Assembly (NCBI RefSeq): GCF_020740535.1
Contig: NZ_CP082362.1
Coordinates: 4,400,501-4,464,500, forward strand
Direction of reading: 5' to 3'
Length of the DNA: 64,000 bases
DNA from: Streptomyces profundus
GTDB lineage: Bacteria > Actinomycetota > Actinomycetes > Streptomycetales > Streptomycetaceae
The notes beneath the pieces are model-generated. The model searched no databases. It saw nothing but the letters and a program-made list of their open reading frames with translations, and was not told the DNA's origin. The position numbers and the translations under genes are program-made. The stretch's first letter is position 1. Each line of letters opens with the position of its first letter. Below, piece after piece: positions 17,705 to 17,882 of this stretch.

Positions 17705-17710
17705 TACGAT
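17705..17710 (+). promoter_or_regulatory. -10 element of a leaderless promoter (Cys-rich leader ORF)
   Basis: TACGAT lies 6 nt before ATG 17717, and there is no ribosome binding site. It would drive the leader ORF and then cysO-cysM. Confidence 0.55.
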
Positions 17711-17716
17711 GACGCC

Positions 17717-17818
17717 ATGGTTCTCCCGGATGTGAGCGATATCCGACCGCACGCGCCGGGCGAGGCATGTCCGTGTTTCGAGCCGTGTCGTCTCGGTGCG
17801 TGTCCCGCGGTGCGCTGA
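17717..17818 (+). CDS. Cys-rich leaderless leader peptide upstream of cysO-cysM
   Basis: The 33-residue ORF begins MVLPDVSDIRPHAPGEA and continues CPCFEPCRLGAC, ending PAVR. It has four Cys at residues 18, 20, 24 and 29, all encoded by TGT, whereas this genome prefers TGC. It starts 6 nt after a TACGAT -10 element, so the transcript would be leaderless, and it ends 64 nt before cysO. Polycysteine leaderless short ORFs act as cysteine-responsive attenuators in mycobacteria; the same role is inferred here. TGTCCGTG (17768-17775), which spans the first two Cys codons, is exactly complementary to CACGGACA (17841-17848). Confidence 0.65.
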   Translation: MVLPDVSDIRPHAPGEACPCFEPCRLGACPAVR

Positions 17819-17840
17819 CCGGCTGGTCGATCGCCCACCG

Positions 17841-17848
17841 CACGGACA
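17841..17848 (+). promoter_or_regulatory. Candidate attenuator pairing element before cysO
   Basis: CACGGACA pairs perfectly with TGTCCGTG in the leader ORF's cysteine codons (17768-17775). A ribosome stalled at those codons would prevent the pairing. The cysO ribosome binding site (TGGAG, 17873-17877) lies 24 nt downstream. Confidence 0.4.
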
Positions 17849-17882
17849 GACCCCAAGCCCGTCTCTTGTTCTGGAGTCCTTC

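Follow-up and report, generated by a model that had tools for sequence, protein, structure and literature searches.

A diverged cysO leader reading frame with a terminal UGU codon in Streptomyces profundus as a possible cysteine-responsive attenuator

The mec-cysO gap and its short reading frame

The window, a 64,000-nt stretch of the 7.65-Mb genome of Streptomyces profundus, carries a mec-like gene followed by cysO and cysM; the Prok-JAB, ThiS and PALP domains of these neighbours fit a mec-cysO-cysM locus, and in the tree the nearest named cysO-cysM relatives of the locus were Streptomyces. The mec-cysO gap of 228 nt holds a 33-codon ORF (Table 1). A second CysO/ThiS-like gene, 61% identical, was present in the same genome (G000:C1:3901338-3901616).

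Table 1. Features of the mec-cysO-cysM region, in window positions
Feature	Position	Strand	Evidence or remark
mec-like gene	17187..17654	+	Prok-JAB domain, E 8e-32; upstream neighbour; possible earlier ATG at 17175
GGAAT, -35 of predicted sigma-R promoter	17697..17701	+	GGAAT-N18-GTT, 17697-17722
TACGAT, -10 of predicted leaderless promoter	17705..17710	+	TANNNT 6 nt before ATG in 122/122 canonical loci
Leader ORF MVLPDVSDIRPHAPGEACPCFEPCRLGACPAVR, 33 codons	17717..17818	+	Orthologues in relatives
ATG, putative leaderless start 1 of leader ORF	17717..17719	+	Sequence, canonical loci
GTT, -10 of predicted sigma-R promoter (leader codon 2)	17720..17722	+	sigma-R consensus
GTG at leader codon 6, a proposed second leaderless start in frame	17732..17734	+	
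Cys18-Pro-Cys20 (TGT CCG TGT), both Cys private to the window species	17768..17776	+	Alignment
Cys24 (TGT), at the alignment position of the HVDLCRL Cys in relatives	17786..17788	+	Alignment
Terminal block, TGT + four codons + TGA	17801..17818	+	Same spacing in 7/7 aligned loci
C-rich, G-poor spacer, possible Rho-entry region	17819..17872	+	Composition
GGAG, cysO ribosome binding site	17873..17876	+	
cysO (ThiS family)	17883..18161	+	ThiS, E 8e-18; stop overlaps cysM start (TGATG)
cysM	18161..19111	+	PALP, E 2e-73

The preliminary description had presented this ORF as a leaderless, Cys-rich candidate attenuator, and re-examination reproduced its sequence features. The frame runs from the ATG to a TGA at 17816-17818, TACGAT lies 6 nt 5' of the start, and the ORF has no ribosome binding site, an SD-like run being absent just before the ATG. 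Four Cys codons, all TGT (17768, 17774, 17786 and 17801; CPCFEPCRLGAC), fall within 12 residues, and TGT is indeed unusual in this genome of C-ending codons (TGC 87, TGT 13 across the 37 long ORFs predicted in the window). The cluster was moderately unusual against shuffles, four Cys within 12 residues arising in 128 of the 10,957 ORFs that were open among 20,000 dinucleotide shuffles and in 6/2000 shuffled mec-cysO gaps. In the whole window, seven ORFs of 12-80 codons had four Cys in a stretch of 12 residues; among its 15 sites with a start codon 5-7 nt after TANNNT, only the ORF at 17717 was a short ORF with at least two Cys.

An exact 8-nt complement between TGTCCGTG (17768-17775) and CACGGACA (17841-17848) is present as described, but it is at chance level: at least one 8-nt complementary pair occurred in 210 of 1000 shuffled leaders, and a pair required to link the Cys codons with the spacer in 199 of 5000 shuffles. 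The pairing was also missing in the relatives L032 and L033. These results bear on the mechanism first proposed, in which a ribosome stalled at Cys codons would change the leader fold so that, by way of this pairing, the cysO SD becomes accessible. In silico, with one ribosome footprint model, the opening energy of the SD barely moved, being 6.9 kcal/mol in the free RNA, 6.5-6.9 when a ribosome occupied a Cys codon and 6.6 when it stood at the stop, so the control of SD accessibility by ribosome position that marks a translational attenuator with SD masking was not seen in the window. Across 11 loci, a ribosome on a Cys codon changed the opening energy both ways. SD unmasking has in its favour the complement itself and the largest drop among these loci (L145, 8.5 to 6.0); weighed against the shuffles, the relatives and the nearly constant window energies, we regard it as very improbable.

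Orthologous leaders and overlapping promoter signals

Conservation of a short ORF in mec-cysO gaps, which had been put forward as a check, was found in a comparison set of 138 distinct cysO loci from three collections (30, 80 named and 28): an orthologous leader of the type MVxxDVSxxTPGxLLVARLHVDLCRLxSAIC, here called canonical, was present at 122. The 122 canonical ORFs comprised 117 distinct sequences and all started exactly 6 nt past a TANNNT hexamer, which was TACGAT in 109. Four tested canonical peptides passed the NCBIfam model NF042934 ('putative leader peptide') with 35.9-39.1 bits at a cut-off of 27. The window peptide gave no NCBIfam match even at E 10 and no Pfam match; the 19-residue NF042934 motif (LHVDLxR region) is gone from it. 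The 16 non-canonical loci comprised five with a motif-less ORF (L001, L139, L140, L141, L145), four in which the ORF was broken or its start lost (L004, L013, L078, L111), two outgroups without a leader (L022, L024), three with another ORF (L079, L099, L113) and two without data (L037, at a contig end, and L096, with a run of N). The other short ORF of L079, L099 and L113 (Spongiactinospora, Actinoallomurus, Actinomadura) followed a TANNNT, preceded cysO and had the form PVQxxLFxHxxxxVVYDC. A longer middle, ASALLGAFG(C/G)G, stood ahead of the motif in L009, L039, L142, L149, L153, L158, L159, L169 and L170.

A peptide search with the window ORF matched 6 of 392 genomes at E <= 0.01, the window genome included, and the matches of only two other genomes lay beside cysO; locus L139, in genome G287, was reached through CysO and not through this search. 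When 394 genomes of the family were searched for the pattern of the window start block, 14 gave a hit; 13 of these were canonical and only G287 was motif-less.

Analysis of the start region revealed a second promoter signal. The block GGGAATC..TA...TG.....ATG..T was nearly invariant across cysO loci, and GGAAT-N18-19-GTT, the sigma-R promoter consensus given in the available parts of PMC9205884 and PMC2375139, occurred in 122/122 canonical loci with spacings of N18 in 115 and N19 in 7. When spacings were counted in all loci on both strands, N18 was found 130 times and the others from 12 to 25 were found 0 to 10 times. The window copy is an intact, exact N18 match that overlaps TACGAT, and the block was also intact in L004, L013, L078, L111, L139, L140, L141 and L145. 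Two more GGAAT-N18/19-GTT matches lie in the window, at 454 (+) and 6189 (-). Unlike the Streptomyces sigma-R promoters as presented in the available text of the same papers, the -10 here is part of the leader ORF, with an invariant in-frame GTG downstream. This codon 6 was GTG in 122/122 canonical loci and also in the window, L139, L140, L141 and L145, against 314 GTG among 1201 Val codons in cysO, and it sits 9 nt past GTT at N18 and 8 nt past it at N19. The GTG is probably a second in-frame leaderless start on the predicted sigma-R transcript; the idea that sigma-R transcripts skip the leader was dropped once codon 6 proved to be GTG throughout the canonical set.

The conserved block might be a sigma-R promoter and nothing else, with TACGAT as mere spacer sequence and the ORF not translated from the ATG. 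No feature is more constant than GGAAT-N18/19-GTT, which is still present at loci that have lost the ORF. In the available part of PMC4340878, S. coelicolor cysM showed hardly any expression until diamide induced it; SigR binding at this promoter did not turn up in the available text. An E. coli-type promoter scan found no promoter at the leader; the -10 is predicted from TANNNT alone. However, TANNNT is invariant inside the sigma-R spacer, at its fixed distance from the ATG in every canonical locus, and leaders of the family before genes other than cysO, which have no such block, showed TANNNT exactly 7 nt before a start codon in 50/159 cases among the matches listed (0-5 cases for each of the other distances between 3 and 12 nt). 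Moreover, L022 and L024, which lack the leader, have GGAAT-N18/19-GTT but not the TACGAT-ATG block. We consider a sigma-R promoter without a leader translated from the ATG improbable.

The window, L139, L140 and L141 formed one group in the tree (local support 99). The peptides of L139 and L140 are MVLPDVSDSRPQAECPVVR and MVLPDVSDFRPHAPRRARRPLGAGRLGRAGCPVVR, and that of L141 is as L140 but with LGCAGC; all three agree with the window peptide in start, N-terminus and end and lack the LHVDLxR motif, which was also lost in a fifth locus, L145. The window ORF has its position and flanks in common with the NF042934-type cysO leaders, and the shared position, promoter block, start, N-terminus and terminal block of UGU, four codons and stop suggest that it is a diverged orthologue of the Streptomyces cysO leader peptide. 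Seven loci have the terminal block: the window, its group members L139, L140 and L141, the motif-less L145, and two canonical neighbours, L038 and L040. As a conserved sensor the four-Cys cluster did not hold up: the window, L139, L140 and L141 have 4, 1, 1 and 2 Cys, the last three being the nearest relatives found, and Cys18 and Cys20 were absent by alignment from L139, L140, L141, L145, L038 and L040. Identical bases between the window and L140 amounted to 55/78 in the leader ORF, 26/50 in the spacer and 65/90 at cysO third positions, and between L140 and L141 to 81/84 in the ORF and 45/53 in the spacer; indels in the aligned window-group leaders stay in frame. Since ORF identity is close to that of cysO third positions yet above that of the spacer, the peptide constraint is weak but not absent.

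These losses would also be expected of a decaying relic, in which leader function vanished with LHVDLxR, the promoter block was kept only for its use by sigma-R and by the housekeeping polymerase, and the Cys cluster arose by drift. Loss of motif or ORF recurs across the tree (L004; L013/L078/L111; L145; the window group) while GGAAT-N18-GTT stayed, L013 and L111 having ACG for ATG beside an intact promoter consensus; the variable Cys number and an ORF divergence resembling that of synonymous sites point the same way. On the other hand, frame, stop, codon-6 GTG and terminal TGT block were kept in 5/5 loci of the window group plus L145, with indels in multiples of three, unlike in L004, L013, L078 and L111, and the four-TGT cluster is rare in shuffles. 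A relic is thus possible but, in our judgement, rather unlikely.

The terminal UGU codon

In canonical cysO leaders, the Cys 11 residues past the motif His (+11) was TGT in 121/121, whereas the Cys at +4 was TGC in 118/119 and other Cys were TGC in 29/31; the cysO(+cysM) CDS of the same loci contained TGC in 123/125 and TGT in 2. Leaders before genes other than cysO, from this genome, its relatives and other families, were hand-picked among the matches listed. Those of the same family comprised 94 loci, 76 in one set and 18, read by frame, in another: among the matches listed, +11 Cys was TGT in 71/72 of the former and 17/18 of the latter, and other Cys of the 76 showed a milder bias (TGC 31, TGT 18). 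In 66 leaders from other families of the class, scored without use of the +11 position, +11 Cys was TGT in 66/66 among the matches listed and other Cys were TGC 87, TGT 17 (Fisher p 2e-31, kinship ignored). Altogether, +11 Cys was UGU in 275/277, from 282 leaders examined among the matches listed, and was absent in five (L054, L127, L212, L216, L241). The window retains a UGU (17801) four codons ahead of the stop, as do its relatives. The choice of TGT, which the preliminary description had stressed, is accordingly meaningful; that description found a real leader by the wrong mark, as start block and terminal UGU are conserved and cluster and pairing are not, and it missed the sigma-R consensus over the leader start, the invariant GTG codon 6 and the motif loss. 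Neither the UGU rule nor the HVDL motif was found reported in the open papers searched.

Leaders in the window genome precede genes for TauD, sulfite reductase, cysteine dioxygenase, FMN reductase and SBP56, and one more precedes a dicarboxylate-symporter-like gene (called by eye). In these six leaders (L118, L120, L123, L124, L126 and L128), +11 Cys was TGT throughout.

Other codons of the leaders were biased as well: Ser at +8 was AGC in 110/112 of the cysO set and 56/64 of the others against a background of 20%, and Asp at +2 was GAT more commonly than background, so nucleotide-level constraint may extend beyond UGU. A shared RNA partner for UGU is unlikely, since the leaders precede different genes, and a conserved pairing partner looked for across leaders was not found. 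For all three leader sets folded, the RNAalifold output was an empty structure at energy 0.0, possibly a run artefact. Pairing of terminal UCUGU with ACAGG of the cysO RBS was rejected as the cause of UGU, which by inspection is kept where the RBS is CACTGGAG. A family-wide RNA fold was rejected too, as the helix candidate is confined to cysO leaders: by direct count, its outer helix had 89% of cells paired in 117 distinct cysO leaders (slid versions 19-59%) and 56% in 75 other leaders (slid versions 32-54%), and as such it is missing from the motif-less window copy. The Val-4 and Ala+9 codons covaried in cysO leaders, including L010 and L150 (GTG/GCC 53, GTG/GCG 22, GTC/GCG 17, GTC/GCC 3), possibly reflecting a cysO-specific hairpin inside the ORF.

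Spacer composition, proposed mechanism and known systems

A classical transcription attenuator has an intrinsic terminator with a competing hairpin, whereas 0 terminator-like sites were detected in 17500-18200. In the 60 nt after the leader stop, (C-G)/60 was 0.13 in the window (17819-17878) and averaged 0.187 in the 122 canonical loci; (C-G)/length was 0.184 in the 56 usable of the 94 non-cysO leaders, 0.037 at 37 window ORF starts (a small control) and 0.04 or 0.001 upstream. Such a C-rich, G-poor spacer would by its composition suit Rho entry. In the E. coli tna operon, the ribosome stalled on TnaC shields a region from Rho; the proposed likeness is a ribosome held at the leader end beside a C-rich spacer. 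The signal for TnaC is free tryptophan, whereas for the window leader it would be charged tRNA-Cys, and the likeness regarding Rho is by composition only.

We give about even chances to the reading that the window leader is a diverged cysteine-responsive, ribosome-mediated attenuator, perhaps of the Rho type, with two promoters and still working via its UGU codons. Transcripts would begin at or next to ATG 17717 from the TACGAT promoter and at GTG 17732 from the sigma-R promoter under thiol stress, and with these starts both would carry a leaderless in-frame leader. When Cys-tRNA is lacking, the ribosome would pause at UGU codons, above all at the terminal UGU beside the C-rich spacer, and there shield the spacer from Rho in a TnaC-like manner, so that cysO-cysM would be transcribed; with enough cysteine, it would finish the leader and leave, and Rho would stop transcription. 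In the window species, which lost the motif that in relatives lies 11 codons before the UGU, the three further UGU codons may compensate. The cysteine-attenuator proposal thus survives in part: a leaderless-looking Cys-codon leader and informative TGT codons speak for it, while cluster, pairing and SD unmasking have fallen away.

Among known systems, the mycobacterial polycysteine leaderless short ORFs Ms5788A and Ms4527A reportedly act as attenuators, an account ascribed to Canestrari et al. in 2020. As far as the available part of their description goes, they resemble the window leader, whose own start is predicted to be leaderless, in having a leaderless-type start and Cys codons close to the stop, in lying before cysteine genes and in showing no obvious terminator, and differ in operon; the window ORF has no adjacent Cys codons, and its cluster does not occur in relatives. 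The Ms models matched canonical cysO relatives only far below cut-off. NF042934 (cis_reg_atten; actinobacterial [RL]H[VI]DLxR...SAxC leaders) is linked to the window through the cysO leaders of relatives, whose place, promoter, N-terminus and terminal Cys are those of the window; the window peptide, without the 19-residue motif, does not match its model, yet its terminal Cys is UGU as in the family. The Cys leaders of Mycobacterium, P. acnes and B. longum, in the available part of PMC1262725, are likewise short Cys ORFs before cys genes with no conserved terminator, and there Seliverstov et al. (2005) suggested Rho for the mycobacterial ones; compared with what that part covers, the Streptomyces cysO set adds the single-codon UGU rule and the sigma-R overlap. 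uORFC-8-2 before cysS of Rhodobacterales (PMC8632094, available part) is also a Cys-codon leader before a cysteine gene but, unlike the window leader, has its Cys codons in tandem, UGC for the most part, together with an intrinsic terminator. The metNIQ leader of S. lividans, described as methionine-dependent in the available part of PMC8079986 (Table 4), has three Cys in its final residues, ARCMCRRMCAF; judged by these codons, it might respond to cysteine.

A wider and rather doubtful generalization, which we put forward tentatively, is that actinomycete LHVDLxR leaders are single-codon cysteine sensors, in which the motif, acting in the nascent chain, lies 11 codons before an obligatory UGU and only a wobble-decoded Cys codon, met in this tunnel context, pauses the ribosome. 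The cysO version would add two sigma factors and two in-frame leaderless starts (AUG for housekeeping, GUG for sigma-R), placing thiol stress and cysteine supply on one leader, and in the window the motif would have been replaced by extra UGU codons. If this is right, Streptomyces and many other actinomycetes would depend for cysteine control on one codon, whose third base is near-fixed against codon bias at a set distance from the motif, a rule that single-base changes could test. Through the sigma-R overlap, thiol stress would be connected with the same cysteine sensor, and the window lineage, with its motif gone, would be a natural experiment.
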